From the NCBI GenBank assembly GCA_934045075.1, contig OW203744.1, positions 6,883,795 through 6,947,794 on the forward strand: a stretch of DNA of 64,000 nt. Reading direction: 5' to 3'. The stretch comes from Yponomeuta sedellus (Eukaryota > Arthropoda > Insecta > Lepidoptera > Yponomeutidae). The notes under the pieces are model-generated. The model was not told the DNA's origin and searched no databases. It worked only from the letters and a program-made list of their open reading frames with translations. Made by a program: the position numbers and the translations under genes. Shown piece by piece: positions 3,443 through 42,400 of this stretch (positions are counted from its first letter, which is position 1; each line of letters begins with the position of its first letter).

Positions 3443-6400
3443 GTAAAGATCTATTTGGGGGTTTTCACTAACGTGTAACCACTTTCTTATATGTAGTAAG
3501 AAAAAATAATTATTAGGAGTGGTAACACATGTTTGGACCTTTTCCTTCCCCCAAATTATTTGGGGTTCCCTACTTCATTCCGAAAATTCTTTGTTCGAAA
3601 TACGGTTCACCTACGAATGATACTTCGAACGATTAATTGTTCGACGCCTTATTCAATCGAATGTTTATACACCGACCGACTGCTTGTTGGATCGATTAAA
3701 TCGAAAACTTAACTGCGATGCTTTTTAATGCGACGGTTAATTTTATCGCATGTAAATACACCGATTGCTGCTAGTTCAATGGCACCGGCCTTGTTACATT
3801 ATTATCTATCATCTAATACTGAATTATTGTAAAAGGACCTACATAGAAGTTTTAATGCTTAAATCCTTTTAATTGTTCTTTAGATACTCGAGAGTAGTTC
3901 ACATTTTCTTCGCAATCTGATGTCATGAGGAATGTTTATTCATTAATAAATTTGGCGAGCCGTTAAATTACGTATTTTATAAAAATACTAACACTCCGCA
4001 AAATGTTTTTGGAAGTAACGAGGCATTGAAAAAACAAGCATTGATAATATAATACACCGGTGTAACATTTTTCGAAGTAACAAGGCACCGAACAACAAAA
4101 ATATCGGATAAAAAAGGCGTCGAACAAACAATCGTTTGAAAATTTCGCAATGAAATAGCGAACCCAATTATTTGATGTAATTAATGAAGAGTCGTGAAGA
4201 TTCCTTAGTAAATAGATCCGTTCTTTTGCCATTAAGATTAATATATTATGCTTTTCAAACTCTTTAAAATCAGAATATTTGTTTGTGTCAACGGCAAGGT
4301 TAAATGCAAACGTTTTTGTTCAACAATTTCAGGATTTTTGGATGAAATGGAGTACCGAATGCTTATTAGTGCCATACAGGAAAAAGTCCAGTTATGTAGG
4401 CATAAAGGTAGTTTGGTGGCTCCTTCATCACCTGAAGTAAGTTAAGTTTTCAACTGATTAAATCTCATTCTTTTGTCATAGGAAACAAATCAAAGATTCA
4501 TTGTAGTGGATAATGAGAGAGAACGAGTGAATTGTGACGTTTAAGGCAAAGCCTCTACTTACGACTTATTGTTACGTAAAAAAAAAATACTGAATAAACT
4601 ATCCATTACAAACGATACATATTTCATATTACTTCAAGATCAATTCATTCATCTTATAATTCGCAGACTCAACTTCGTGCTGTATCGTGGCTTCAGGGCA
4701 ACGAAAGAATTGCCGATTTCTTCTTGGAAAATTCAGAAATACTAAATTTTAATTTTAATGACATCCTTATATCTCGAGGTTAGTTTAACATCTGAAATTA
4801 CATTTAACGACGTTAGTTTAATAACACATTGTGTTATATTTAAAAAAAATGATGAGTTGCCAGTTTAATGTTTAGAAAAAATGTAAATTATGTAGTATAT
4901 ACCGAATGCCTCTCCCCAAGAGATAATAAATAATTACATATCGAAATACATATATAGGAAATACATTGCAGCTCTCAGATTGTATTTGTTGCAAATCAAA
5001 GCAGTAAGTAGCAGTATTTGGAACATATGTTTTTAATAGCTTGTAGAAGGCACTGACTCTTTGTTTATGAACTCGTTTTTCGATCATGTGTTGGTTGTGT
5101 TCTGCTGATTCTTGTGGAGTGTCTTTGACTTTATTAGTCAAAAAGGTACAGCGACTGCATGTGTCAGAGGCAGGTGACTTGAAACTTATATTGAATTCAT
5201 TCACAAAGATTCTGTAGAACATTGCGAAATGAACTTTGTGAGTTGGCTCTGCACTTTCATTGTACAGTTTATATAATTTCTTCATGCAAAGATCACAGAA
5301 AAGATAAATTCATCTTGACTTACTCCTATTGCAATAACTTTCTGTTCCTCTTAGTCGACCTATGAAAGTCCTCACACATTTTTTTCTTTTCAGTACTCTT
5401 GTGGCTTCTTCTATTCTATAAAAAAAAGAAAAAGTTAAAGAGTGCCTATTAAAACTTGATTACGATGAAACTGAGATGCTATTGATGAGATAAACTCACA
5501 ATCACGCATATACACACTAACACATAACGCACACACAAACACACACACCTACACACACACAATCATTCACCTACATAAACAAGCACATCCACTTTTTCCT
5601 GTTTTTCTTTTAAGTACCTAATATTAAGATATGTCACTGCATTTCTTATTAGTGATAAAAGGCCGTCCACTGTTGTACAGAGGATCTCTGGCTCCCATAA
5701 TAAAGATCATTCTAGCTTGGGAGACAGAAGACTCACCAACTTAGTTCCTTGTCAGCCATCTGTTCACTCCTACTTTGTGTATATTTAAGCTGATTGATTG
5801 TATGTGGCTATCAATAAAGATTTTATTTATTTATTATTTATTTCCACCTCGTTTTTCTTGAATAGAATTGCCTTCAAATGTCGCTCTTGAAATGTTCTGG
5901 ACTTTTGTTCCTCCTACTTTCAGTATGTTGAGTAATAACTTTTTACATAACCGAAGACTCATTTCCTTCCTTTTGAGAAATATTTAACTGTGAATTTATG
6001 TAAGTTTCCAGGTTTCTGTTTTTTGTTTTTGTTGATGGGACCGGGCCTTCGTCTCTGTATCTCGGTAGCAACTTCGATCATATTAGCTATCATCCCGTCT
6101 TGCCTCTGTTTATTAGGGATGCTGAAAAACTTATCTCTCATTTCTTTGACCATAGTTGGTGTTAATTTGTGGCATGAAATTATTCGTCTAAGTATGAGAA
6201 CAAGGCGTAAAGACGTTTACAGAAGATGGAGCCGAATATTCTTTCTTCTTAGCTGCTGCTCTTTTGCCCCCCGTTATTTTCCGTTTACGAATCCCGGAAC
6301 TACATTCACTTACTAATACGGTATCGGTTTCGTCTTCGTTAATTTTTGATATAGGACGTATGCACTGCACCTTGAGTAGAGTGGTATCGGCCGACGACAA

Positions 6401-12400: not shown

Positions 12401-15400
12401 TCAAATCATCCAATCATGGGGTGAGAAATATAAATCCTTTTATTGCAATTACTGTATACAAACAAAATTGAATCATTTTACATAATTATCATTTGTTACA
12501 CGGTGTAGCGACCGATGATATTAATGTGGATTACACTTTTATTTTCTTGATTATAAGTTATAATGTAGCGACGATCTTACGTCGTCAGAGTCGACAGAAT
12601 TAGGGTATCAATTATTTTAAATGCAGAAATAGCATGAACTCTTAGTCTGGAATGATTGTTTAATCTTTCATGAATGTAACAATGCAGTTGCAAAGTCTTA
12701 CATGTATAATATGCTGATTGTTGATGTAAAATTAGGTAATGAGATTAAACTTAGTAGTAGGGACTTGGGAACAGTAAACAATGAAGGAGTTTATTAAGAT
12801 AAAAGTGTCAATGCAAAATAAAATAGTTGCAAAAATATCACACTTAATAGTAAAAAAAACATGCACAGCACGATATCCAATAAATTTTCGTCAAGAACAC
12901 AGAACACATAAAATAATAATAATTTAAGAAAATAAAAATCCCTGACTGATCAAGCCACTCCGGAAAATATCTGAACCAAAGGATCACAACACCCTGGCAG
13001 CATTATCACGCTGCACTGCCAAAGAGACCCTCTGTCTGAGATACGCACCAGAGCGGCAGTCAAGCCCACGCTCCTTCAAGCGGCGACCCAGTTCCCCAAC
13101 AAGGATCTTGGTCCGAGTCCTCTAAACTCCCATTGTCTCTAACGCAAATAGAACAAAAGTATAATTATTCATAGGGGCACCATATTTTTGTTACTAGAGC
13201 GTAGCTGGGTGTTTCTTCAAGTTTACATTTATTTTGCACTTTTTTCTGTAATTTTATAATTTTGTCTAATTTAAAAGTAAGATTAGTCGGATAGGAATCT
13301 ACATTTGAGGCAGTGAGGATATGTGTGTGTGTACTAGGGCATTGAAGATTGCGCAGTACAAATTGAGAAAAATAGCATCGAAGAAATCTTTTGGGGATGG
13401 TAATGACATTATGTTACTGGTAATGAAATTTGTGTTGCTGGTAATGATTTTATGTTTCTGGGAATGACGATAAAAAAGAAAAGCATTTAAGAAATCTTTG
13501 TTTTTATTTTAGTACCAAAATATATTAAAGTATTAAATCAACATAGTATTACCTAATCAGTTTTCAGTAACCACCCAAAGTAAAATAGGCAAAAAAATTT
13601 TTTTGTATTACGCTTAATTGAAAAATTTTTGTAAAATCAACACAAACATTTTGTTAACATCACTATTGATTCATTATTTCAGTCTCTTATTTTCTCTTCT
13701 TTCAACGCTAATCCTTAACTTTTAAGCTTAAATTTCTTAACTAAACTCTCTTTTTATATTTGGCTGATTTACTATATCTTTGATTTAATCACTCTACTTC
13801 TATTCATTTTCAAGTCATCTTATTCAACCGATGCCCGATACACCCTTGATTGTTGTTTTCATGAATCATTCTTGTTTTTATTCTCTAAATCTTAGTCTTC
13901 TTCTTAATTAGCTGATTTGCATCTTTCATTGTTGTTTGGAATCATTCTAGTTTTTATTTATTCTTTAATCTTCTTCTTATTTAGCTGATTGACATCCTTG
14001 ATTGTCATATCAGATAAAATGTGTATTCTTTTTCTAGGTGGTATTCTTTTTCCTTTACTCGATTCAACGATACTTTTGGAGCACGATGGCTGCTGGTTTT
14101 CTGCGTTTGCATGTCTATGCAAATTTTTTTCCAAGAGTTTACGGCTATCAGTTGTAGTTTGTGTTATAGTTTTTGGTGCACACGGTTTGGTTAGTGACAA
14201 AGGAACGACAACATCATAATCTTCAATATGATTTGGATCTGGAACTATTTTCTTATTTTGTATAAATCCTAAATGTTTGTTGTGGTGACAAATCTCGCCA
14301 GCATCGCACAAAAAACAACTGATAGACCGCATCGTTGTAAATCTTTGAAATTTGTCCCATATAACTTGTTGTACAGAAAAAGTTCCTTTAAATGGTTTTA
14401 AATCTTTCGGTATTTTCTTTTCTCTTTCTATCACGTCTGCCTCTTCAACTGCTTTTATAACTATGTTTTCTATGCGATCGTTCGTAGCATTGCAAAATTG
14501 GCTAAAACTTCCAACATCTTCACCAAAACGACCCATCTGGTCGGCTGTTCTTTTCAAAACTGCGCCAACTCCATCTGGGGCACCCTTGCCGTGCCCAGAT
14601 TCCGAGTAGTTCCATGAAACCCTTTTTATTTGTGGAAAATCTTGTGATATCTGAGAAATTACATAAAAAATGTATTCATTCCTGTACTGAGAGGATGGTG
14701 AGTCAGACAGAAAGTGTATAGTTTCAATGAAAGGGTTTCGTTTGTATGCTTCTTGCAGTAACGGTATCAAATGCTCCCATATTGCTGGTACATCGTGGCG
14801 CGTACATTCACTTATAGTAAAAACACACGTCGCTTTTACGGTTGCTGTAGAGAAATCATGGGTATAAATCACAGCTGTATGCAAGGACAATGACTGCCAC
14901 TGCCAGCAAAGTGAAAGCTTTGAACTTCTTCGCCGTACTTAAGCGCATAATTCTCTGAGAAGTCCACGTGTCATTGCTTCATCAAATCGCAATAAATTTT
15001 CTCTCATATTTTTCATCACCGTATACTGCTTTAAAATCTTATAAGAGTGCAAAAAGAATTTCGACAATGCTGTGTCTAACTTTTGAATCAACTTTAAAGT
15101 TTCTTCTCGATTCATCCGTAGAACAAAGTCCGATGTGAAGGATTGCTATTTTTTAGTACAGAGGACCAAAGCTATAAAGTCATGTAACTCCAGAACTATA
15201 AGATTTGAGATTTTGATTTTTTGATATGTTTTCTTAAAACCCAAGCTTAATTAAATACCGTTATGCATATTTCACTAATTATTTTGATTACTGATTTAGG
15301 GAGTCTGAAATTGACATAGGACGTTTTACAGTGAAACAACAGGTGTCCGTTGTGAACATAGTGCGTTTTACGGCGGAGGAGCAGGAGTCCTTAGTCAACA

Positions 15401-18400
15401 TAGTACGTTGTTTTGCGGAAAGTTTAAAATAAATGACGTCTCATATTAATACAGTTTGTTTTTCATTCAAAATTGTTCTTCTCTTTCCAGTCCCATTTTC
15501 AGAGTTACCAACTCAGATGTTCGACAAGTAATACAAAAAAGTTTATTGTTATTACAAATCGTTTATTAAAATTCTCAACATAGGTAACAAAGCTTTAGAG
15601 CTGGTGTTTCTTTATCACAGCACTTTTTGGCACATACTTGGAAATAGGTACAGTTTTTTGGCACTGACTTAGAAAGAGTATGCAGCTTATTTATTAAATA
15701 CTACTAGGTAGGAACATAATTAAAGTAGTTTAAACACCATTAATTAGTAGGTTTTTATACTAATGATTAACAATCAGTCTCTATTATTTATCAGTCTTTT
15801 ACATAGCTAACAACAATAAAACAGTAGGTATCTAAGGTATGGCATATGGCACTTATTTGTTATAATTATTGTTAGGTATAGGTACTCGTAGCAAGGTTAG
15901 TTAGTTGAGTAGGTAAGAAAGATGAACTTTTATCAACAGGAGTAGCAAAAACGGATACAAGTCTGAGATTACTCCAACAGCTCCTCATCAGATTCTTCTT
16001 CTGTATCATTCACAGTGATGTGATGTGGTAAAGAGTTAAAAAATGAATGATACTCAGTAGGAATAACCTCAGATCGGCACATATCAACAAGATCTTTATA
16101 TTTAGTGACGGGCAATTTTATAGGTCCGGAATAGGCAGGTTTCAGTTCAGTTTGTACAGAGTTTCTTGTGTTACCGCGGATAACCAAAATGTCATAGTTA
16201 GATTCAGTCAGATCATATTTGAAAAACAATTTGTTAGGGTCACTACCATCTGCATGAACTTCACGAATGTTACTCCAGTAGATCTTCTTTCCCTTAATGT
16301 CTTTCATCCAAACCTTGTTATTAACAAGGCATTTAAAGTCAAAGACGTCATTCTGAGTCACGTTGCGAACCACATACGGCTCTCCTTCACTTTTAGCCCA
16401 TCTCACTAACAAACGCCATTCATCTGGACTGTAAATAGTTTTGGGTTGGGATGCTCTCTCGATCACGGAGTGGACACTGTCCCCTTCATTCTGTGTGTGT
16501 CCCTTCTGTAGAAATCGGTGTGTTATGCGTATCTTGAACTTTTTTGCGGCGTAAACATATAGCGAAAACACAAAGCGGTTCCGATTTTGGCCAGCACAAT
16601 TGTCAGACCAAAATCGGATCTCTTTAGCACCTTGCTCAACGTTAGCCTCTATAAACTTTAGGAGGCAACTGGAAACTTCATTAGCTCCACGTTTGGCTAC
16701 TGTCTCGTCCCACATAAAGCAAACCGCCTTCTTTTTTCCCATGTCGAAAACCGTGAAATTTAAACAAGATAGTTTCCTTTTGTAATAAAACGTGCTTATA
16801 TTTCCGTGAGGGCAAGTCAAAACCTTCTCAAAATCAAACACAGCAGCAATGATGCTTCCATTTGATTCTTCAGCGTCTTTCTTGTCCTTGCTCTTCAAGT
16901 CTCTTGCTACCGTTTTGTTGGACTGATGCTGCAGATAAGCTTCTTTTTCTTGGTCCGTTGGATTTTTTTTCATGCGAAACACGTGACATTCGTCGCATTG
17001 ATCTTTTTTGGGAATATGAAAACCAATGTTGAAATTCGAATTGACGATGTCTCGATACTGGCGCTCTTTTGTAGCCTTGGTGCTGTATTTTTCTAGATCA
17101 AACCAATCTTGGTACATTTTGAACATTTTTCCAATAGTTAAGTCTCCTGGTAGGTATAGCTTTTTGCTATTCTTGCGAATATAGTGTGATTCGACAGGAT
17201 CGAATGCCTGGACATGGTCACAAACGCTTCGTTTCATGTCGTCATTCATTACGACTTTGTGATTATCGTGCCGGCCCCGTCTGTCCTCTTCGACAATGGC
17301 ACTGCCATCGTACTTCTTCCATGCTGTTTTTAGGATACGGGTTGAAACTGCAAAAGTATTTACAAACATAGTTTGGCAAACTTCAACTCTTTCGCAGTGG
17401 GATTCGCTCGAGCCTGTAATCAGCGGCAAATTGTATTTGAATGTGTATTTCCTGTTGTTTGGAGTATCCTGATTGAGACATCTTTTCTTTTTAATTTTAA
17501 TAGAATATTTCACTATGAAATTCCATTGCAAGGCGCGATCCCCCAGTTGCCAAAATTTGGCAAAACAGGCCAATCTTTGTTCTTGGGATATCTTTTCACA
17601 GCATTTGTTACGGCATTTGCATGATGGTCCCATCGTTTTCTCATCCATGGCTTTGCCCTTTTTGGTAACGTACTTTTTACCCAAATTCTTAAGGCATTTA
17701 CGTTTAACATCTGTCCATTCGTTTGGGCGCCTTTGTCGTTTCCTTGTGGTTTTAGGTGTATTTTTGCAGTCACTTGAATGCGATACAGCAGGTGAATTGG
17801 CGGAGCTAAGCAACGCAGAAGAAATTGTAGAGAAACTGTCTTCATGCTCCGAGCAAAAGTTACTGTCGCAGATGGAATGAGAATTTATAGGTGATGGCAT
17901 AGGTGTTGGTATTGATAATTCCATATTAACTGGGGTCGTCCTGTGAGACTTTTCTAACTCTTCAATTTGAATCAGTGGTGAATTTTCGTAGCTAGAAGGT
18001 ACTTCAAAAGAAAACGGCGTAGGTTGATTGCTGTCAATATCCTGGTGCGGTTGAGTAGAGCTGATATACAGAGGCTGGCTGGTTGAGTGGGTTGGGTTTG
18101 TATATTTGCTGGGGACAGTTTCCCTACCCCCATCATCGTCACATTGTAAATCTTCCTCCTCTAATATGTCACTAAGTTGTTGGCTTATTTCTTCTGCCCC
18201 AGGTGGTAAGGGCGATAACGTGCCGTGTTCTTCGACAATCACGTCAACTGCAAAGAAAAAATAACATAATTATGTATTTTTTTTATAGTAAATTAAAATA
18301 AAGTAGCTTATTAATCTACTGTAATAAAACAACTTGGATTTTTTTCATGATAAACTGGTCTTTCAATGCGAATAATGGCCTAAGAGAAATGACGATCCCA

Positions 18401-21400
18401 TTAACAACGTTCTATCTTAAGATAGAACGCACAAATCGATATACAGATTCCGTACAAAAACGTCCTATATAAACACGTAACCCCTAAAAGCAACAACAAG
18501 TGCGTACAATAACGTCTCAGGATTTCTTAGGATATACATTTGTAAACTGATTAAATTATCAATTATTACATTAAAAAGATTCCACTGCGAATCAAAAAAG
18601 TCGTTTATATCGTATTTTAAAGCTGTAATTCATCATCAAAGTAGTCCGACAAATAACGTCGTATTTTTACATCGATTGCTCACAACGACTTTTTATGTTT
18701 ATAAGGGAATATGTGGTGAAATCGGATTAATTAAGAGATTAATAGTATGTAAAATGATGTAAAATAGTTGAAATTAGTCTACTTACCGGCGTTTACACCC
18801 TCATTGTTGTCAACAACTTGAACATTTGAAAATGAGTAATACTGGTCAGACACTTTTCCGTCTTCTTTTATCATATTTAATATTTTCTGTGACCGAGACA
18901 TCTTCAACAAAACTATTTTAAAGCCAAAACCATAATAGTTACCACAATTATCGTCTTTAAATTAAAAAAAGCAAAGAGCATCACCAAAATCGTCCTCTTT
19001 CTAACGAACAGCGACCGGACTGACGATCGGACGCGGCGCGCGTGTCGCCCCCGCACCCCGCGCGGCGCACCATGTGATCTTCGGCCATTGTTGTGCGGAA
19101 TGAAAGTCAGAACGAACATTATTCGATTTATTATCTCCGAAACTAAACAAGATGCAAAAAAATTAAAAACACACGTTTGTAGATCTTTGAATCCCTGATA
19201 AGATTAGCTGTTCAGCTCATTTTGGTTATATATTTACAACGGACTTTGTTCTACGGATGAGTCGTTCTGTTTCTTTCTCCTTGGATGTCATCCGCTGTTT
19301 TTTCACTTGTTTGTAGTAATTTTTTTTTCCTTAATATTTTGTGTATTATTGTCTGCTATGTGTATTTCTAATTATAAGCTAAATCTAAAAACTAACAAAA
19401 CAAACCTAAATATATGTGCAAATTAATTAATTTTAAACACTACCTAAAAGCCAATTACTGCGCCCAGATCATCGCCGCCTCTGGGGAGGGTCCCCAGTAT
19501 GCTGGCTGCATTACCTCGTTGGATGGCAAGACTTATCCTCTGCCAGAGGTAAGAGCCAGCTCTGGAGTCTCTGGTCGTGTTGTTGAGGCGCGACGCAAGT
19601 TCTTTAAAGAACAGTCGCGCCTCAAGCCCCCACGGTCCGAGTGTCTCGACACCAAACGGCACGAATAAGTGACTCAGTGCCAGAGTCCCGTATTTGAGCC
19701 ACTTGATGCCTTCAGCACTTGATGCCGCAGCGCTGGCTTTTATGGAAGTGGCCCGGACGTGGGACGGGGCCAAAGTGTCCGCGCATGTTGCGTCCCAAAC
19801 CAGGGTCCTCCCATTTTTTCATGGGATCATCGACATCCCATCCGGCCTCCTACTATCGTTCCGGACCACACCGTTTGGCTCTAGAATGGCCGGGACGTTA
19901 ATTGTGGCTAGAGCCCTTCGGATGATGTCGTTGATCAACGCATGACGAGGAAGTCTGCCAGCACTGCGTTGGCATGACAGGCCGTGTCAGCCCAGACAGT
20001 CAACTTTTTCTCCGCAGAAGCAGCGATGTGGCGCAGTCAGTTTTGTGCCAAGTCGCAGACCCACAGCTATCGTCAAACTCGTATCATCTAGCATTGTTCC
20101 AATGCTAGGCGATGGCAATGCATGCAGCCAAAGTCCGGATTCCGGCTCACTCACTGCTACGAGGCGAGCGCGCTCTGCAGGGCTTTCTGCGTTATCCAGT
20201 AGTTTGTTTTTAACCACTTTGCAGAGCGGCTCGTCCCACAGCCTTTGTGAGTGGAGCACGGTCGCTAGATCTTCCCCCGGACAGGCCTGAACCCAGGCAG
20301 GATGTTAACGAAGAGATCTCGCACGACATGAGCCGAGGATAGGAATGCCGGGAGGGCTACACTGGAATTTTTTCTAATGCCGAGTCCGCCATGACGCATC
20401 GGGCAGGCAACGACGCCTGATCCCAGTTCTTTTCGTCTAGCTGACAATTAAAAATTTCTGTGAGGGTCTGTTTTAGAATTTGGTCAAGTGGTTCCAAAAG
20501 GTTTTTGTATTTCCAAAAGGGGTAACAGCGTAATATATAAGTAAATTTAGGGACGAAAAGGCAGAATCGCACTATACATAGAGCCAAGTGTGCGTTTATT
20601 TCTTTAAGTCGAAAGGAGGATGATTCAAATTGTCTGATGAGGCCTTCAATGTAATCAGGCATCGCTTCTTCTAGAATCGGGGCACCAAGAAGGTGAAGCG
20701 ACTCTTTATTGAGAATTTTTATATTTGGGGCCGTACTGTTGAAATCTGTTGAGATTTGTTTTCCTGTATTTAAGTCTATTGAGTCGGGGATATAGAGTTC
20801 GCATTTAGAGAAATTAAGTTCTAGGCCTATTTTCTGAAGATTTTCCGAAAGGTATTTTAAATCCGAAAGAACTGTATCTGCTTCACCTCCAATGGTTCCG
20901 TCGTCTAAGTACCAAACGTTGAATTTAGAATTTAACTTGCTTATTGTCGGATGTATTGCCAAACTAAAAATTGCTGGTCCGAGGGGGTCTCCCTGCTGGC
21001 AGCCAACTGCCGAGTGGAGCAGATTGCCTTTAAAAATCAAATTGGTCGGATTTCTGTAGCATTGCCACAAGTATTTATATATGTCTGGTATATTTTGTTC
21101 AGCAAGGCGCCTCTATCTACCGAATTAAAGGCGTTCTTAACATCGACTTTCAGCATCACCTCTTTACCACAGCCCCGAAGGTACGCGCGGGCTGCATGTA
21201 CAGCAGCCTCGCAGCCGCCTTTGCTGCCAAAACCAAGCTGTGTTGGGTGGAAAATGTTGGTGACACTTGGCAGAATATACCTGCAGCACAACTTCGAGGC
21301 TATTCGTCTTAGTGTATTACCTACTGCGATTGGTCTTATTCCACCGTCTTTTTTCCTAAGGGCAACAAGGTTGTTACCGTACATAATATCCGTTATCCGT

Positions 21401-27400: not shown

Positions 27401-30400
27401 TGTTGTTTAGTCTCCATTGTAGTTTCCTAAGAACAATGTCCCAATACTTTTGCCCAACTTGTCTGTGTATGCTGTTAAAGTGTCCAAAATGGTACGGTTG
27501 TATCTCTCCACTTGTCCGTTGGCTCGTGGAGAGGCTACAGCATTTAGGATATGATTAATTTTGGAATCGTCGCAGAACTTCTCAAATTCCTTAGAGGTGA
27601 AAGATGTTCCCTGATCGGAGATTAACCTATCAGGATAGCCAAAAGTAGTAAACATGTCATCAAGAGCACGAACGGTAAGGTTTGTTTTGAGATTCCGTAA
27701 TGGTTTAATTAGGCAGAGTTTCGTAAAACCGTCAACCAAAACGAGTAAATAAGAGTTACCTCTAGCACTTTTTACGAATGGAAGTGGTCAATATGTACGG
27801 TGTCGAAAGGTCGGTCAACTTTGTGTATTGGGTGCAAAAATCCTTCCTTTGCACCACTAGGTTCTTTGCTATATGCACATTCTATACATTCTTAATAAAT
27901 TTTCTCATTTTAGAGAACCAAAAATCCCTGCTAATTTTGTTTAAAGTTTTTTCGAAGCCAAAATGACCAATGTCGTCATGATTTAATTTGCACAGTTGGA
28001 ATCGGGCATTTTTTGGTACAACCCATTTCAATTCCTCACCAACCCTTCGGAACAACGCATTATCTTTAAGTAAATAGTTTTTCTGTATATCTGAATAATC
28101 TTTATCTTCCAAAACTTTACGAATACGCTGCAATTCATCGTCTTTCAACTGTGTTGTAACTAACCAATCTTCTTAAGTGATTCTCAGTATGGAGGGCATA
28201 GGATCCTGCATCATATCGGGCTCTAACGGTTGAGGGTTCCTGCTTAAGGCGTCTACATGGGACATTGTGTGCCATGGCTTGTACTGAATGCTAAAGTAAA
28301 ATTCTTGCAAAATTATCCACCAGCGTGCTATTCTCGGGATGAGGTCCCTTTTGATTAAAGTGGCTCGTAACGCACTACAATCTGTCACTAATGTGAATGC
28401 AACACCTAGCATATATACACGGAAACGTTGAAGAGAAGCGACAACTGCCAAAGTCTCCAACTCATAGGCATGGTAATTTTGTTCCTCTAGACTAGTTTTC
28501 CTGCTGAAATATGCTATTGGTTTCATGGTGTTTTCATAGGCATCTTCTTGTAATAATCACGCCACGGGACATACTGATTATAGTTATCTGTGCATGATCT
28601 CGTCAAGCAGAATAACTTTTCAAGTTTAAAGTCGCTGGACATAATCACGTTATGCCACGGGACTGCTCGTTATCAGCACATGATCACGTCATGGTGAATA
28701 ACGAAATAATTGTGTTGCAACGTTGACATATTTTTTCGTATCAAGAGAAACCTGGATAATGTAGGTCAGTAGTGAAACAAAAACAAATTAAAACGGGTAG
28801 CAATAAAACGAGTGACTGTAAATTACAGTTCTAAGTGTCAAAATTAATTAATTTGGGTTATAGAATTACTAAGTGAGCGACTGACTGCGAGTGACGAGAA
28901 ATCAACAGAACAGCAACTTACAAACATTAATTTGAGTTACTTAAAATACAAAATGAGCAGCTTCATAATATTTGAGCGACCTAATATTTGTTTGAGTGTC
29001 AACGTTATGTCCTGCATTTTTTTTCAATATTTGGCAAATGTATTTTTTATACTGAGCGGTATTTTATCTTAAATGAAGTGTTACGAATACAAAAACCACT
29101 TTGAAAAACACACTAATGAGCAGAGTATAATGAGCTCACATTAAAAAAATAAAAATAATATGAAATAACTATTTGAAGAAACACTATTCTATTAGTTGAG
29201 AAATTTTATTATTGAAATATAAGGGTAATTAAATAAAACAATGTACTCCGTAAAAATAAAGTAATATGCATGCATTTATTTCAATCAAATGAACAAAAAA
29301 TAAAATAAGACGCTTCAGTCCACTAAAAAAAAAACTTCTTATTAATACTAAGAAACATTGATAGGTATGAGGAGCCCTACTACTTATCGTCACTGGAAAA
29401 TAAGTGCTGGCTTGGACTTAGTGGGCCGGCCCCGTTTTCTTTTTTGTCCAATGGGTATCATTTTTGCTTCCAGTGGTGGTGTTGTTAGTTTGAGCCGAAT
29501 TGCTAGCCCCAAAACGTGTTTGCATACATATCTATTGAAAAATTCGGGACAGTCGCACGATCCTTTTTGCCAGTCCAAATTTGGCAATGTGGTTTTCTGG
29601 AAAGCAACTGACTGCTTTTTATACTTGTCAAAAGTCTGCCAACGATCATTGTAGTTTAAATCTGTAGCATTTTCGTTGCAAATCAAATATACTTTTTTGG
29701 TAGGATCCGATGCTACTATCTTTATATTTATGCTTTTCTTCGCCCAGACGTAAGCTTCCGTCCATTGTCGAAGCTCAATAGTAGGTGCCTCAGGTAACGA
29801 AGAGTTTACTAATGACCACTGGGCTACCATATCGGTAGCAACAGACAGAAATCGCGACAGAGGAAATCGTTCTCGCAATGTATTGTGGTCTTTTATGTTT
29901 CTATTAAATGACTCGAGGGCATTATTTGTCGATGGCGACATAGGTGCTGCACCTAAGAACCAATTGCGATTCTTTCTGAACCATTCCTCTTCCATGTACT
30001 TTACAAAGGTGGTTTGTGTTTTCCATTTCTCAAGGAACGCTTGCGAAGCGGCATTAAACACTTCGAGTAAAGCTGCGTTATGCCAAGCATCTACATCCCT
30101 CAAAACGCTTTTTTGTTCCTTTTTTGGCACAATTTTTTCTACTTTCTTTTGTATATTTATTTTAGCATGTGCCCAGCACATACGAATAGTCGGTTCTTCA
30201 CTAAAAACATCTGAAAATGCGTTTTTTATACTTTGAGCTGCGTCGCAGATCAGAACTCTGGGTTTCATTGTGTAATCGTATAATTTCATAACTTTGTCCT
30301 TTATTCCTTGGAACATTGTCTGAAAATCTTCTTGGCGCTCATTTGTAGCTACTCCCAAGCAAATAGGATGAAACTTGCGATTTTTATCCGTAGTGCCAAC

Positions 30401-33400
30401 AATCAGCACCGGAAATCCCTGCCATATCAGTTTGTAAGTGGCATCAGTGTGTATGAGTTCCGTGAATAAAATTGTTTTCAATAATGTTTTTGTAGATAGA
30501 TTGAATCGGAAACTTGGCTGATCACCTTCAATAACGTGGTAACTAATGACGAAAACCTCGTTGTCATCCTCTGGAATAGCGGTACGTTTAAATATCCACT
30601 GCTCTAATTCGCCCAGACAAATACCCGATTTTCCAAATTTTTGTGCTCTGAGATCCGACAAATAATTGTAGAGTTGCCTTTTTGATGGTAAGGGTATTCC
30701 TTCTATTTTAGCAAGTTCTGATAAAATTGCTTTGGGTTTCAAGCGTTAATTAAACAATTTCTTAATTTCCTCTTTTGTATTCTCGTGAATGCCGTAAGTA
30801 TCTCGGGTACCAATAGCACTTTGGTTATGTTCTGAGTCAGTTTGATACACATTTACCTTATCGTCATCATTAACAAATAACAAATAAAGCTCCGCGTCGC
30901 ATTGCGGCCCTCTCTTTTTGACTTTATTGCAGCGATAGAACCTTTTTTGACCATCTTCAGTGGCACGTGTGTAATTCCGCGACCAAATACATTCAGAATT
31001 TACGAAGTTTAAAGCATCTTCTTCATTAGAAAATTGTTTTAAAAATACCCAATCTTTCGTCTTCTTTTGCTTTTTAGTCACTGTTATTTCTGTTTCACTC
31101 TCAGATTCACTTTGGTACACTGGAACTTCATTCATATTATCACCACTTGTCCCTGGTAAGCTAGAATTGTTCATGATTGTAACTATAAGCAGTTAAAGAT
31201 GTTAAAACAAATTAATTACGCAGCACGTCCAAATATTACGTCACATCACAACATAAACAAACGCACAATGCAGCGTGCGAGCCAGTGGTGCGAGCACATG
31301 GCAATCGTAAACACGCAACGCTATTGGTCCGCAGCCCAACTCACCTGACTGCAACGATTCGTCGCCCCGCCCCCATTCGAATTCGCGCGCATTTAAAAAT
31401 CTGAAGTTTTCATTAAAAAAGCGTATCAAAATAAAAAAACATCAAATAGAATATCAGTAACCAATAATCATTAATAAAGCAGCTTACAAAACTTTGCTCA
31501 AAGTGAACTTTTTAGTAGTTCGCTAAGTATAACCTCACTTAGAAAAATCGAATCTATCTTAATATTGAAGTTGCCCTCTCTGTATTTCCAGTCGCTCACT
31601 TAGTAATGAAGTCGCTCGGATAAAATTTTAATATCTGAAATGGATTTATCACAATCCACTTTTTGTAAGCACGTTCTGGATTTTATTATAAATCAATAAT
31701 AAAATCGTCGTCAGTTTAGTACATTTTTCGCTTACTCAAATTCATGCCGCTCAAGTTATTAAAACAGTATGTCATCATCAGTCGCAAAGTTTTTTTTTGT
31801 TCGCTCGTTTTATAATTCCCCAATTAAAACTAACCTTCATCGCTGCTGGATGAATAGCGATGTCCAAGGCGATTTTGTAGCCGTCTAATCTTCCGTCTTA
31901 TGCGATCTTCATCATCACGTTTTCTCTTTCCCATAATATCACTTGGGAATACTACAAAACACAAGAAACAATCACTAAACACTAACCGAAAAACTTTAAC
32001 TTAAGCGTAGGTGTCGCGATGCCCGCACAAAGAAAGCGAATGAAGTTTGTGTGCGGGGAGGCGGGCAGGGTATGTATGTAGAGACGTACCTACCTACATA
32101 GTACCGCGGAGGTACTTTTGTTTCTCTTATTACTCTAAAATATTGTGCGATACCTGGTACATTAGAGAGTGTACTACCTAGTTAATTATATAAATCTCCT
32201 CGAATGTAACGCCTCGTATAATTATGGTCAAACATCACTTCAGGTAAGTTCGTTTAACCACAAATTAAAATATTGAAACAAATTAGTAGCTTCTTTTTAG
32301 AAAGATATCTATTTGCATGAATCATAAAAACTTCTACGATTTTTTTTAGTAAAAACTTCATGGTTGGTTTTTCTTTTTAATAGACAGTTGTCAGTTGGGA
32401 AAGAGAACGCACGAGTTCGGGAAAGGTAAAAAAAAGCACGAGTATGTAATAGCCCACATCCCAAACGCTATACGTCCCTGCAATACGCTACTTTTTAAAC
32501 AACTGTTTTAAAAAATACTTTTAAATCTGATTCCGTCATTACATCAAAAAACAGCAATCCTGTAAAAACATTTGAACAAGAAAGGAATAACTTTACTTGT
32601 AGTTAGTTTTTTGCGTGAAGTACCAAAGCTAATATTTTGAATTAAATATATGTAATAGGTCTTTAGATGGGCAATTCAGGAAATAAAATATGTAAGTACC
32701 GCTATACCAGAACACCAAAAAAAAATTGCCAAATTATAGTTTCCATTGTTTTGACATATATTTGAACTAAAGTTTCAGACAATATTTTTTGTATACATGA
32801 GTTTTAATATGTACTATAGCCTCCCAAAAAATCAAATCGCACCGACCAAACCCAAGAAAATAATTAAAAAGTGACTAGCTGGAACATTAGTATAAAAGTA
32901 ATTAACTGGAACATTTGATAGAAAGGCAAATTTTGTATAGAAACACGACTACAGCCTTTTGCGAAGGAAATATTTATATCCTTTACTATCTTTCGATATA
33001 GTTCGTAGGAAATGATTGGTTGTTCGGGATGTTTTTTGAGAAAATCATTAAACATGAATGGGCTTGTAACCTCGGAAGAGAGGTATCTTTTTTTGGGCGC
33101 ATGTTCCCTCCGGTAATGCGATATTGTTGGTCGAAATGATTCAATATGTCTTTGAATTAATTCATGGTCAATTTTGAACTTTTTTTCGCTGTGTCCTCTT
33201 CCATCTGATGGAACGACAGCATTGCCGTTCTTAACAGCATTTCTGACCACTTTTTCGCTATTTTTGATGTAGCCGAGCGCCGTCAAGAAGAAAACCCTGC
33301 ACACTGCGATTTTCTCTCCTGTTTCATCACTGAAAAAGTACTCTATCACACTATTTTTATTTTTAATGCACTAACCCGTGCTAAGGAACAAATTTAAAAA

Positions 33401-36400
33401 CCTATTTAGAGGCTAAAAATTTCACCCATGCCGGGATTCGAACCCGCAACCTCTGGCTATCCGTACCAGCGCTCTACCAATTGAGCCAATGGGCGACTCA
33501 CGGCATCAGTGAAATTTCGAACCTCTTTACAATATTCTCTATATTACGTACAGGCAGCGACATCTGACTTAAGCAAATTTTTAGCCTCTAAATAGGTTTT
33601 TTAAAGTACTTTATCGTTTTACTCCGGTTTTTCTTTTCTTCATCTTTACAAAATACTTTAATTTTGACTGTTCTTGCGTATGACGTATTGTTTAAGATGA
33701 AGTACCGTTGTTCTTTCTACGCAACCAGTACAAGTCGTGAATGTTTTGTCTTCGGTCTTCTGAAATATTGATTTTGCATCGATTTCGGTAGTCACTTCGA
33801 GCACCTTCTAAAATAAATTAAAGTATGTGAAAACGATGCATTTTATTCATTTTAGACATCATGTTTCATACAGACATTTACTGCTTAAGACCTACACAAT
33901 CGATATCTAAATAGAAAGAGTGTAGATTTTTTTTTCAAAACAACCGGGTACGATTCCCGAAAAGAGTACAGATGTTTTTTAAAATGTATGAATGCAGTTT
34001 TTCTTGTTATCAAAATCGATGACATGGTTCCTCAGAACAGATCTTCGTTTGTCTTATAGTTTCAGACATTCCCATACTGACCGATTTGAATGAGATACCC
34101 TGTATACTAATATTTTTTAACACTGCATTGAGATATTATTGTAATTACACACATGTAATGAGAAAATACAATTATTAATGGATAAAGTAATTATGTGAAA
34201 AGCATAAACAATGAATTTCAGTGACATTCATTGTTAATGTTTTTTCCTGCCATACATCTTAATTTAATCTTCATTTACTTTTCTCTTCTTAATTTCCATG
34301 ACTGACTTCAACGGAAAAATACCAAGACCTACAAAACTTGTACTGTAGGTCTTGGTATTTTTCCGTTGTCAATTCCAGTGAGCCTGAAACAAAGAAACAA
34401 ATTAATTAAAGAAAAATAAAATACAAACCTGTATAATATTTAACCTACTTTTAAAATGGAAGTTTAACATACCTTTATATGCAACATCTGGTAAATGGAA
34501 TTCATTAGCTCGACATTGTATCAGAGAGTTAAGCCTACCCTTCTTCTTTGTAGTTATTATGCCTTTTGATTGCAAGCCATTATAATTGCTACGGTGTCCA
34601 ATGTATACTTTTTCAGATGAGCAGTAGAGTTCTCGTATTTCTTGGATTTTGAAAGGACATGTTTTCTTGAAGGTCTCGTGTTGAAGAAATAGAGACCAAA
34701 CTCGGACAATTTGTGGATCTTCTTCAACGTCGATAACCCTGAATGGTTCTGGTTTAACTCGTGCATGTGCAATGAGCTCATAGAAATCACAGGGCATTTC
34801 CATTTTAGTTTTGAGTTTAATGATGCCAAAATTCTTGTCACATTCCATGTGAGAATAATCCCGTATGGGGAACGTGATCTTTACATGTTTTAACAATTTG
34901 CACGTGTTTGTCATAAAATAAATCCACTTGATCATATTATAATTCTTGTTTTGACCTCCACATGAATCACAGAAAATGCTGAGATTTTTTACCCTTTTAT
35001 CAAGGTAATTGATAATAAAATGATGTAAAAATTAAATAACTTCATTTGATCCTTTCTTTGCGACAGTCTCCGGATAACAATAAAAATATGACTGTCCTGT
35101 TGACAAAACAAGGATATTAAAAGTGTACATAGACAGTTGTCTTCTGTAGTAAACATCATTTGTCGTGATATTAGGTAGTGAAATATTTTTCTGAAAATCA
35201 ATAGCAATCGGCCGGGCAAAGCTAAACGTAGGTGGCGCTGCCGTAGATGCGACCCTTTGTCACTACTTGTCAAAGTGTTTACGTGTTTTTCTGCTCAAGT
35301 TTTCGCCGTTTCACACAGTTTTTTTGATAACCTCGGCTTTTCTTATTGGACTCTGGACTGTTTTACGTATTTGGAATACTGTTATACCTGTATTACGACA
35401 ACCTTGGCTTCGCACACGACTCTGGACTGCAACGTGATTTGGATATTCTTTTACCTGTGGAACGACGAATTTGGCTCCTAAACGCGGATAAAAAGCACGA
35501 TGTATGCCACTTGGCGATTACCAGAGCTTAAAGAAGAGCTAAGGAAGCGTGGTGCCTCCTTACGAGGCAAAAAAGCGGACCTGGTTGAAAGGTTAGAAAT
35601 GTACGACAAACACTGTCACTTAGCTCAGCCTGACCCTGATACCGAAGATATTTCAATGCAAACACCACCTACCACCTCCTTCAAAGATGTGAACAGTAAT
35701 ACTGTACTGCCTCCACTCAACACTACATTAATCAGGCAGTATCTCAATTTAACCTCAAAGAAATTGGACCAGGCTCTCCATCTGTATGAATCCAGATTTT
35801 TGACTGTGGTCAGATCATCTTGGGTCGAAGACAGATGCTACATTAAAGGTTTTTGTAAGAAAACAATGAAAAATCTTCAATATGAAGTCAATGTTAAGTT
35901 AAATAAAGAAGGACCACCTGAAGAGCCAACATCGTGAATGCCCAGCCGGGAGCGGAGTCAATGCAACTTGCAAACATATTGCAGTGCTTCTATATGCCGT
36001 TGAAAATATGGTGCACCAAAAATGTATCTTATTGAGTGAAGTTTGCACGCAGCGACTCCAAAAATGGAACTTTCCCAGCAAAAAATACACTGGTACACCA
36101 GTTAAAGCTGATAAGCCACCCAGAAAACGTCAAGTAAAAAAATTACTGTTTGCACCCTACCCTGTGGAAAATATAGACAGAGAAAGATACAACTTCAAAG
36201 TGAGGAATCTAGTGCTAGCTTTACCAAACTCAACAATGCCATTGAAGCAATGTTACGAGCCAGCAAATCCCTATGCTGTTGAGGGAGACCATAATTATTT
36301 TAAAATGGATGCCCGAAAAAACTTGTTACAAGAGCTAAAATTAGTCGACATCACAGACGCTGATATAAATAACATACAAGATGACACAATCAACCAGACA

Positions 36401-39400
36401 GAATCAAAAGAGTGGCATCTTCATCGGAAAACCAGACTTACAGCAAGTATATTTCATACAATTTGTCACTTAAGAGAGACAACAAAGGGCAAGTATGCCA
36501 GAGAAGTATTCGAGAGAAAGGACTTCTCATCAAGAGCCACAACACATGGCCTATTAAATGAAAAAGTTGCACTGGCTCAATATTGTGCAAACAATGACTT
36601 ACAAGTCGAGCCTTGTGGACTTTTCGTCAGCAAAGAAAGACCATATCTGGCTGCTTCACCAGATGGGCTACTAGGGTCCCAAACCATCATTGAAGTAAAG
36701 TGCCCTTATGCCAGTCGCTTTAAGGATATAGAACCTAATACAGTGCCATATTTGTTTGAAGAAAATGGTGCTCTGCAACTAAAAAAAAATACACCATATT
36801 ATTATCAAATACAGGGCCAATTATATTGCACTGGCAGAGATTTCTGCAATTTAATTGTCTATACATTCAAAGACTTAAGAGTCATTTTCATCTCAAGAAA
36901 TGATGCATTCATCTCAGATATGCTGATGAAATTAGATTCATTTTATGAACATCATTTTAAAGAAGTTCTATTTAATAAATACTTATATTATAATTATGAA
37001 CGAATGGAATAAAACAACTTTTAGAACAATTTACTTTTTATATTTACTCACAATACCTTCTCTAAAGTTACATAGCATAAAACATATAAAGAATATTTTT
37101 GAGGCTAATGGGACATAAAATTGGTTCAGTTTTTAGTATTGCATAAGTTTTGGTTAGGCCTATTAATCTTTCAATATGCACTCTTTGGCTAGCTAGTTTT
37201 TTATCTGATTTTGATAAGATTCCTGGAATTTGTGCTTTGCCTTTAAGAAATGTAGGAATATTTATCCCTACACCCTTGCCAACAAACAAATCTTGGACAT
37301 TAAAGCCTCGATCTGCCATAATGCTATCACCTTCCTCGCACATATTCAATAAATCACTGCGCTCTACAATTTGGCGGTCACTTGTGGCTCCTGCATATGC
37401 TTCTGAGCAATAACTTAGTAAGCCTCCTGGAGAAGAGCCAACTAAGATTTTCACTGTATTTTTGTGTTTGTAGGTCTGAATGTAGCTTTTTGGGCGCTAG
37501 GATGGCTTGGTTTTTGAATTGGAATTTCTGTGCCATTAACTATCACTCTCGTTGCAGGGAAATCTTTATAGAATATGTCTGGCATGTAAAAGTTGACTAA
37601 TTTGCGATTTGGCCAAATATCAAGTAGTCTCCATAAATCATTTACAAAATTAATCCAAGTGACAATTATGTTAGAAACAGTGGTTTTACTGACACCAAAC
37701 ATCCTGGAAAGTTCAAAGTCTGTTTTGTTTCGTCTTAACTTCATGAGTAACATCAGGAACTGATCCTCTACAGACAAACTGAAGTCTTTATAACATAACA
37801 TAACATAACATAACATTTACATACAAGCACATACATTGCTTCTGGCCCCACACTAGGATACCCTGTATCGTGGGAACCAGAAACAACGACATCACAAACA
37901 TGTAAACATCCAAGACCTGGATTCATTATCGGTAAGTAAGGTATCTGTTGAGAACAGGGCTAAGAATGTTGATGTTTGAGTGGATGCTTGTTGATGACTT
38001 GATGTTTGTATAGGATCAGAAGAATGGCCAGGGAGTGGTTCAGTTTCAGCAACTTCCACCTCATCTAACACTTCAGTTAAAGGATAAATATCTTTACTAC
38101 TGCTTGATGTCGAAGGATTGTCTTGGACTTCAAACAAACTTTTCTTGCAATTTCTCACAGTAAGCCGTTCTTGTCTTTGCTTAGCTTTCTCCGATAATGG
38201 TTTATAATTCCATGAAAACTGGGAGGGTACAGCATTCTTTTTTAGATGTCTATGTTGATGTTGTAATCCTGCAAATTACAAACACAATGTAAATGTTAGG
38301 TAGGTAAGTAATTATTATGAAGATTCATAATTAAAAATACACTAAACAACTGTTTAAAACAATACCTGTGTCTCGACTGCTGCCAAGATAATCAGTTTCC
38401 AAAAAATGATTTCGACATAACCTCGAACTATTTGAAGGACTGAATTTTGGACGTCGTATCGCTTTTAGCCACAGTTTCTGCACTTGTTTGTCTCGAGGAA
38501 ATTTATGAGTACCCATTTCAGAGCATTTAGACACACTGCAACGCGGCATTATTGTGTAACAATATTATTTTGAAAAAATTGCATACAGTTTACACTTTGT
38601 TATGGGTACAAACTACGACAGCGCCACTTTGACAGTTGCCAACCCCATTGCTTCAAATTCCGTATGGGGAACGTGATCTTTACATGTGTTAACAATTTGC
38701 ACGTGTTTGTCATAAAATAAATCCACTTGATCATATTATAATTCTAGTTTTGACCCCCACATGAATCACAGAAAATGCTGAGATTTTTTACCCTTTTATC
38801 AAGGTAATTGATAATAAAATGATGTAAAAATTAAAAAACTTCATTTGATCCCTTCTTTGCGACAGTCTCCGGATAACAATAAAAATATGACTGTCCTGTT
38901 GACAAAATATGGATATTAAAAGTGTACATAGACAGTTGTCTTCTGTAGTAAACATCATTTGTCGTGATATTAGGTAGTGAAATATTTTTCTGAAAATCAA
39001 TAGCAATTGCTTCAAATTCACAACAATTTCGAGCCTTCAGCTTACTGCTCTTTTTTCCGTCATAAAAAACTCCGGCTTTTGCAAGGTGTACCTTCTTTTC
39101 TATTGTCAATTTCTTTATTTCCTTCACATTTTCTGTCGTTCCGTCTTGTTTAGATAGAGAAGTCACCCCTGCATTTATTCTATCACATGTGCTACAGGTA
39201 TCCGACCTTGGATATCCGAAAAAGATATTATATCTGGAATTCACTTCTGTATGTTTCATATGACAGTGTGTGATTAGGATACTTCTCTAAAAACAGTTTA
39301 TGTACTTTCTTTATATCAAACTCCTCAGGCAGATATATTTTTGAAGTTTTTTTGTTGCTGTAGTGGCTACATCGTCCTTTAAAAGATTTTAGGTGCTATT

Positions 39401-42400
39401 TTATGTCATCATGCGCTTCAGTTTGCAATTTGTTCGGGCGGTTATCATGCCTTCCCCTTTTGTCTACTGGTGCTATGCCAGAAAGTTTTAGGCTGGATTG
39501 AATATATTGAACTTTGGCGTTGGTTATACCAAAAATAGAGCAAAATGCTTTAAAGCAAATGGGAATTGATTGAATAGTATAAATAAAATAAATAGCTGCA
39601 ACTTCTTCTTCTATCTTGGAAATGTTTCGATGGAACCGCACTGTTATCCTAATCCGCACTCTCCGGTTGCGGTTACGGCTAGCCGCAGCCCGGTTAACCG
39701 CGATTGCAACCGTATCCTGCGGCCAGCCGGACATGCAGCCGCAGTGCGGCTAACCGGACAGTGCGTACGAGGTCTAAGTGTTCTAATTATAACATTTTAC
39801 TGTCTTTATTTATTACGTGGCTTTCGCACTCGTACCGTCTTTCTGGTGTAATTTTGGCTAAGCCTGCAATAATTTTAACCTTCGTCTATTTTCAAGATTT
39901 TGTCTTGCGACAAGCCCTTTCGCTTGTACCCACATGACTTCAATGGGGTCGATACATTCTAGGCGCGCCATTTCGCCACGTTTTTAAGATATTAATCTTT
40001 ACATGGTTTTGCATATCGATCAAATCACTTTTGCTTGATTTTTCAGGCAATTTTTTTATTTGTTTTTTATCCACTCCACCGTATATTTGATTTCAGCCAG
40101 CTCATGTTGGGGAGGGTTTTAATTTCTTTAACTGGTACGGATCATTATCTATAATTAATACGGCGTTGAGTTGCAGCTAAGGGAGTATGCCCGGGAGCCA
40201 TTCCTCATAACAGTCACTGTTCATGTCTTGATGATAATTTTCCTTCCCCGATTTGGATGTAAACATTAATAAACTTTCGTCAAACAAATTTACTCGTTCC
40301 CTATGTGCGAAATCATTAAACGTCGATAAAAGCATAATTTATTATCGATAAGAACCTTGCCTGACTCTTGCAACACTTGTGCAAATTAATCTGTCAAAGT
40401 AGTCACAAAATTATGGTTTTAAAAACCTATTTAGAGGCTAAGTTATGCTTGTTCCTTTAAGCACAGTTGCGTTTCAGTATTTTTTATGGACCTATTGATA
40501 TTTTGTTTGTGTGTTTCACAGGTATTTGTCGTAAATGAGTTGATGGAAGATTTAGTGCTTATCGATGGGATATGTCAAGATATGGCCACGAGAGAAGTCT
40601 TCCAACCTCCGTGTTACATTCCGAGGTTTGCCCTTGTCAATACAACTCCAGTACAGCTACTCATTGTTCTTTGGTTCTCCGAGAGCATTTACCTTTTTCT
40701 CGGAGTGGAATTAAATTAAGATAAGATAAGATAATTGTTTATTTTTCTGTCCACAAATTACATTCGTATACAAAAATAACATTGGATAAATGATGCAATA
40801 CAGCAGAATGTACTATTTGTGGAAATTATAATAAATTATATTAAATTATAGTTTCTTAGGTATATTTATGTCTAATGATTGCAAATTTGAAATACAGAAC
40901 AGCACACCGACTGATGTTCCCCAAATCGTCGCAACTGATAGTGTCAGGCACATGTCCCGAAACGAAACTGCTGATAATACCGGCGAAGGACACTGATGAA
41001 CTAGATATTATGGAGGACGAACTAGACGACGTTCAATGCGAATTGGTCTGTTTAGTTTTTTATTACTTCATTATTTTCATCATCGTCATCATCAACCCTC
41101 TGCTGGGTATTGCGACCAAATGCCATTGGTCATTCTCGGTCATCCTTGCCATTCGTGTCCACGGTCGTCCCTCCGCCTACTCGGTGATATCGGCGCACCG
41201 CTACTACTACACCAGATATCTCTTCAGCAATAAACTAAAGATATTCCGAAAAACTATTAATTGGTCCTTTCACAGGTGTCGAACGTTTCGTCTCGCTGTC
41301 TCTATCACAAGGTAGTACGTAAATTATCAAGCGACAACAAAATGGGTAGCAGACGCGGTCGCACCAAGCGGAGACGTGGGAATCCCAGACGTGTTAATTA
41401 TCGGGACTCTGTCTGGAATAAACAATGTTAGCAAACTGTCGGAAATTATTTAACAGTGTGGTGCCCAAAATTCTTAGTTCGTATGGCAATCATCACAAAC
41501 TAACTTTCCACAGCCACTGCAACCATGGCTCCCGTGAACAGCCATCAGAGCGAGAGGGAATTGAATTCGAAATATTACAAGCCGAGTTTGGTGGAAATGG
41601 TAAGTTTTGATTTTCTCTCAATCATCTCTTCATTCAGTGTTCTGTGATGTTCACGTAAACAGTTAAGGCTCGTTTACGCTGAGTCAACATCGTGCGACGG
41701 TTTGACTACAAATAGAAACTACATGCAGCATATGTGGCATACGTCAGCCTATTTTACGCCGAGGCTTGCTTGCTTCTGTGCTAGGATAATTTCAATAACA
41801 TTGTGCCTGTGTCTCCATCCTTACAAAATTCAATTAACACAACTGAAGGGTTTGACGACCTATATGTTTGACCTCTCCAACGGATTCTGTCTTCTGGATT
41901 TTTTTCAATTAATCTCTTCACATTTAACGAAGTTAAAACACTACATATTCCGACCGTATTTAGTATGAAATATTGTAACTGCGGCCGCCAAGCCTTAACT
42001 ATTTTGAAATATAATTCAATAATGAGGAAACGTTGTTTTATCCATTTTTACAAAACTATACTGTCAGCTGTCGATTTGTTTTTTTAGGGTTGCCAACACT
42101 TTGTTGCACAAATGGCGGTAAATTCAAATTTTGCGTTAATTTTGGGATATCCTTTATATATAATATTAACCCTAGAGTGGGCGCGTCTTTCTGCGTAACG
42201 TCAGTGGGCGCATGGGGAGCATTTTGTCGCCCCTTTTCCTATAACATTTTAAGTAGAAATACAGCAGTTGAATTAATTTATTTTTTCGGGATTTAAGTAA
42301 TACACAAATAAGTAATGAAAAATCAACATAATATTTATCTCTGTTAAAAACTTTGGTTTACACAAGATATTGGAAAACTTGATATTTTAATTGACTTTTT

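Follow-up and report, generated by a model that had tools for sequence, protein, structure and literature searches.

The Sola superfamily of DNA transposons is characterised, in one review, by a "DDD-TPase", 4-bp target-site duplications, terminal inverted repeats (TIRs) of 11-1124 bp and lengths of mostly 2-9 kb (PMC10741241), and a second paper gives AT-rich 4-bp target-site duplications for Sola2 (PMC3627910). The protein domain DUF7869 (PF25273) is described in Pfam as of unknown function and is tied here to TIR elements, one of which lies in a stretch of 64,000 nucleotides of the moth Yponomeuta sedellus (contig OW203744.1, positions 6,883,795 to 6,947,794; hereafter "the window"). We consider it very likely that this element belongs to the class II (cut-and-paste) DNA transposons and is autonomous, with the DUF7869 protein as its transposase; that role of the protein had been proposed in the initial annotation of the window. 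The transposase role is supported because several lines of evidence agree: ends shared by multiple copies, 4-bp duplications in five families, paralogous empty sites, open frames in all five full copies and the predicted fold. The element and its gene are laid out as follows in the window:

15104..15107, no strand: left copy of the target-site duplication, TTCT, read from the sequence
15108..19264, no strand: complete TIR transposon of 4157 bp, with five full genomic copies at 99-100% identity and identical ends
15108..15132, plus strand: left TIR, CGATTCATCCGTAGAACAAAGTCCG, with similarity extending as far as 15139
19240..19264, minus strand: right TIR, CGACTCATCCGTAGAACAAAGTCCG, with similarity extending as far as 19233
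19265..19268, no strand: right copy of the target-site duplication, TTCT, read from the sequence
18787..18901, minus strand: exon 1 of the DUF7869 gene, starting with ATG, with a GT donor at 18786-18785
18248..18786, minus strand: intron of 539 nt, GT..AG, predicted from sequence
15969..18247, minus strand: exon 2 including the stop codon; spliced product of 797 amino acids with a PF25273 match of 39.3 bits

The 25-bp inverted ends and the TTCT on both sides, both noted in the initial annotation, are present as described. The TIR arms match at 24 of 25 positions and, over a longer stretch of 32 nt, at 91%; the element begins and ends CGA..TCG, and its two ends are the sole occurrences of the terminal 25-mer in the window (up to 3 mismatches allowed; 0 expected by shuffling). 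The genome (657.5 Mb, 57 contigs) contains five full-length copies of this family (family 1), of which C25 carries two and C5, C13 and C19 a single copy apiece, which rules out that the ends occur in no other genomic copy. Their flanks are unlike each other and carry the duplications TTCT, AATT, ATAC and ATAC; the remaining copy, L005, lies between AGTT and CGTT. Copies L002 and L003 show zero differences over the aligned columns, L004 differs from both at 1 column and the window copy at 6, and L005 differs additionally by an insertion of 12 bp and a deletion of 3 bp. The frame of 797 amino acids is intact in all five. Among the 17 matches to the element in the genome we set aside L012, whose right end lies outside the locus, and L019 and L020, which do not align to family 2 (see below) across the element. 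The element is young and apparently complete.

The intact two-exon gene of about 797 codons expected inside the element was likewise borne out, with splice sites taken from the sequence. Its match to PF25273 exceeds the curated cut-off of 26 bits and places the protein in the DUF7869 family. A Lyase_N match of 19.2 bits, under the Pfam cut-off of 26, was disregarded, and at E <= 0.01 exon 2 matches neither rve nor H2C2 in Pfam. None of the other open frames listed for the element exceeds 135 codons on the opposite strand or 123 codons on the gene strand. The gene had been called the "sole cargo" of the element; it does stand alone in a complete TIR element, but is better named the element's own transposase.

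Structure prediction for the DUF7869 core yields an integrase/mariner-type RNase H fold, in line with the comparison to RNase H-fold transposases suggested for this protein. Conservation of the proposed catalytic residues was counted over 180 aligned rows (121 near and 59 far; P0284 left out), taking in all 120 listed of 225 protein matches, of which earlier alignments had used 82. The positions concerned are:

16986..17216, minus strand: possible H-H-C-C zinc site (H383, H393, C456, C459), ahead of the catalytic core
16833..16835, minus strand: candidate for the first catalytic acid, Asp510 (FDFEKV), an aspartate in 177 of the 180 rows
16602..16604, minus strand: candidate for the second catalytic acid, Asp587, an aspartate in 172 of the 180 rows
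16479..16481, minus strand: candidate for the third catalytic acid, Asp628 (GHTQNEGD), an aspartate in 170 of the 180 rows

The third acid is most likely Asp628 (GHxxxxxD) rather than a His/Glu pair, because in the distant relatives (n = 59) the position of E626 is Pro in 41, while that of D628 is Asp in 57. E626 had been invariant in an earlier alignment of 83 rows, and its candidacy as third acid was overturned by the wider one. The proposal of a DDE-type (Asp-Asp-Glu) transposase with D / D / H-E blocks is thus supported as to the transposase, but not as to its third acid. The region of H383, H393, C456 and C459 possibly binds zinc: H393 is kept in 176 of 180 rows and C456 and C459 in 175 each, and H383 is kept in 119 of 121 near rows and 33 of 59 far rows.

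Further families with DUF7869 genes have the same type of target-site duplication. Family 2 (4.2-4.5 kb) has 65-66% DNA identity to the window element in the matched part and shares the TIR core CGTAGAACAAAG with it; both ends are in view for nine of its ten members among the loci fetched, and eight of these have an exact 4-bp duplication, the exception being L014. Duplications were found in 4/4 copies of famX (CGGCTGC..GCAGCCG, 1.9 kb), in 2/2 of fam575 (3.2 kb; one end GAGGG.., the opposite end ..CCTCTC or CCCCTC) and in 2/2 of fam777 (GAAGACG..CGTCTTC, 3.7 kb), both times AATT. Taken together, 20 of 22 copies across five families have duplications of exactly 4 bp and none has one of 3, 5 or 6 bp; pairing left flanks with the right flanks of other copies gave 34 matches in 462, i.e. 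1.6 expected. Outside this count are L037, L045, L048 and L054, each with one end unread, and families 729, 569 and 1107 entirely. In another DUF7869 family, the copies L030-L034 (on C9, C10, C11, C15 and C36) are more than 99.9% identical over 3.4 kb and have a long open frame, and therefore more than one DUF7869 lineage looks young by its sequences.

A genome search for PF25273, in which 150 of 239 candidates were scored, listed 149 matches. Each of these exceeds the cut-off, and many fall into groups of equal score; 14 control genomes gave none. The core CGTAGAACAAAGNCNGATNTG of family 1 and 2 ends, searched in the whole genome with 1 mismatch allowed, gave 27 hits and its reversed pattern 0. 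By position, 24 of the 27 are ends of copies in hand; the hit at C12:22659056 presumably marks the far end of L012, one hit on C20 lies 2.5 kb from a PF25273 match, and C25:14299715 (1 mismatch) is unexplained. Few hits being unassigned, no crowd of short derivatives carrying this core is apparent in the whole-genome search. At G000:C12:22645544-22659076, two ends of the family-2 type stand in opposite orientation 13.5 kb apart, which suggests that a large insertion later entered a family-2 copy.

Empty counterparts, which the initial annotation had proposed to look for, exist for copies other than that of the window. Among the loci in hand, the joined flanks of 3 of 18 copies match repeat members straight across the insertion point. 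For L004, three copies of the surrounding repeat match and have ATAT, ATGT or TCAC where L004 has ATAC. L017 (family 2) has one empty counterpart with a single ATTT. The one counterpart of L013 (family 2) lies at another place within its own locus; it too carries ATTT once, and two bases further on there is a gap of one base. These empty sites are paralogous rather than orthologous. In the window, the element interrupts a gene of what we call family B:

19269..19330, minus strand: upstream part of the family B coding frame, some 20 codons, which continues in frame from 15107 downwards once the element and one TTCT are removed
13958..15107, minus strand: remnant of the family B gene on the downstream side, with a stop and a frameshift, from frame and alignment to relatives

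With the element and one TTCT removed, a frame of 76 codons crosses the junction, with about 20 of its codons on the upstream side, and then runs into a stop. A second frame, of 51 codons, is likewise open across the junction after this removal, and the open frame is therefore weak evidence alone. Aligned with 12 relatives, chosen from the 120 listed of 200, the family B frame continues across the junction with a spacing close to theirs; upstream similarity is low. Of the earlier claim that the family B frame becomes continuous, the span across the junction and the fitting spacing of the relatives stand; the frame's openness does not single it out. Family B has no Pfam match, and its relatives, among the 120 listed, include those of moths, beetles, spiders and fish. 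Its conserved layout D / SDxxxxQ / GHxxxxxD, in which 106, 117 and 118 of 121 rows have the Asp, is similar to that of DUF7869 and suggests that family B may be another DDD (three-aspartate) transposase family. We conclude that the element inserted recently in family B, the gene of another mobile-type family.

A gene within inverted ends is by itself no proof of a transposase role, and the DUF7869 gene could be the passenger of a non-autonomous transposon whose ends are recognised by a transposase encoded elsewhere. This is very improbable: in five families, whose ends look different apart from the core common to families 1 and 2, DUF7869 always goes with 4-bp duplications, the element holds no other frame of more than 135 codons, and the protein has a predicted integrase-like core with three conserved aspartates. 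It is still less credible, to the point of being nearly negligible, that DUF7869 is a domesticated host gene which was multiplied by ordinary genome duplication, the repeats being coincidental. Comparison of families 1 and 2 suggests that the protein is under constraint (the synonymous divergence was not estimable), as such a gene would be, but copies with exactly shared ends and differing flanks on four contigs, exact 4-bp duplications with paralogous empty sites, and the many equal scores among the listed PF25273 matches all speak against it.

Several observations weigh against an autonomous transposon with DUF7869 as its transposase. Run against the sequences of solved structures, the profile of the 83 rows gave 0 matches at E <= 1; Foldseek gave no match at E <= 1e-3 with a model of 593 amino acids, and one with a model of 311 amino acids, with RNase H1, RuvC and NurA close behind. 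In family 2 the long frame (806-820 codons) is present in 3 of 9 copies and broken in 6. Two of the 22 copies have no exact duplication (L005, AGTT/CGTT; L014, CTGT/ACAT), and the AATT of fam777 might be part of the element itself, because it flanks every end seen (3 copies). The empty-site search for the window copy returned its own flanks and a weak 76% piece stopping short of the junction, and that for L005 only its own flanks. The case as a whole is built on sequence and predicted structure, with catalysis inferred and splicing predicted.

For the autonomous transposon that we favour, the transposase would be made from the spliced gene, and would bind the inverted ends of 25-32 bp, with their core CGTAGAACAAAG, and pair both of them. 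Its RNase H-like core, with the triad D510-D587-D628, would excise the element, whose 3' ends would be joined to target DNA at positions 4 bp apart, and repair of the gaps would leave the 4-bp target duplication. Here we infer catalysis, the order of the steps, a cut-and-paste rather than a replicative route, and current activity.

The elements probably belong to the Sola superfamily, an enzyme class that is described but unlinked to DUF7869 in Pfam, which is compatible with the transposase role proposed here. The triad, duplication and size of the window element (TIRs of 25-32 bp, 4157 bp) fit this description of Sola and lie within its ranges, and the 4-bp duplication of the five families is likewise shared; the DDD likeness concerns the residue pattern only, combined with a predicted RNase H fold. 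The resemblance is by description, and "DDD" in PMC10741241 may be generic shorthand. We therefore do not file the element as Sola. Fam575 begins with GAG and fam777 with GAAG, and families 1, 2 and X begin with CG. The termini of Sola2 are GRG, which fits the start of fam575 but not that of the window element's family. Target duplications of 4 bp also occur in superfamilies besides Sola, which tells against a firm assignment.

The duplications of DUF7869 elements are 4 bp long and of many sequences, not TA as in Tc1/mariner, and none of the 22 copies has the TTAA of piggyBac and Kolobok. Mariner spacing is D-x34-D, as in Mos1 and Metnase, in contrast to D-x40-D in DUF7869, which also has no sequence match to the solved chains. 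Retroviral integrase and Ginger are set apart by the absence of an rve or H2C2 match and by the third acid, which in DUF7869 is Asp; Ginger TIRs measure 40-270 bp in PMC10741241 and are longer than those of the window element. We consider it rather unlikely that DUF7869 constitutes a large, currently moving and undescribed superfamily of DDD transposases separate from Sola, forming an old clan that would also include family B, with a possible integrase-like zinc site ahead of the core and a recent passage between beetles and moths.

Among the best 120 of the 225 protein relatives, the named species are moths and butterflies with the exception of two beetles, which by itself points to a moth or butterfly as the probable host, and the labels read "uncharacterized", "hypothetical", "unnamed" or "DUF7869 domain-containing". 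In a tree of 51 hand-picked rows, P0011, from the beetle Diabrotica virgifera (73% identity), is nested in a supported group of 8 (Shimodaira-Hasegawa-like approximate likelihood ratio test, SH-aLRT, 99), in which the remaining species names are those of moths and one butterfly; this position is compatible with horizontal transfer or contamination. In viral contigs 128 stretches fit the pattern and none is a relative. Of 98 such stretches in contigs of prokaryote genomes one is, L021 (JAIEQN010000152.1, a Gemmataceae metagenome-assembled genome), a DUF7869 piece of 38% identity on a 5.6-kb contig and probably eukaryotic contamination binned by mistake.

Elsewhere in the window, five stretches on the minus strand (532-1056, 4983-5384, 33050-33331, 34717-35199 and 38741-39572) have 22-30% identity to the DUF7869 protein. 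Several contain stops, and the five are probably remnants of other families. A frame of 342 amino acids with a YqaJ-like recombinase domain (35984-37012, plus strand; 60.2 bits) is perhaps part of another mobile element, and one of 450 amino acids with MULE transposase and SWIM domains lies at 29390-30742 on the minus strand.

DUF7869 or PF25273 is named in none of 5.39 million open papers, and six DUF7869 motif strings are absent from the open papers searched. The passages considered from open papers on Sola and new DDE superfamilies hold no text linking Sola to the DUF7869 domain. The present results provide a testable function for a domain family that is listed as unknown in Pfam and is abundant in this one genome. 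With five near-identical copies whose frames are open and whose ends are defined, and with a predicted triad, transposition could be assayed directly, and such copies might yield a new gene-delivery tool for insects.
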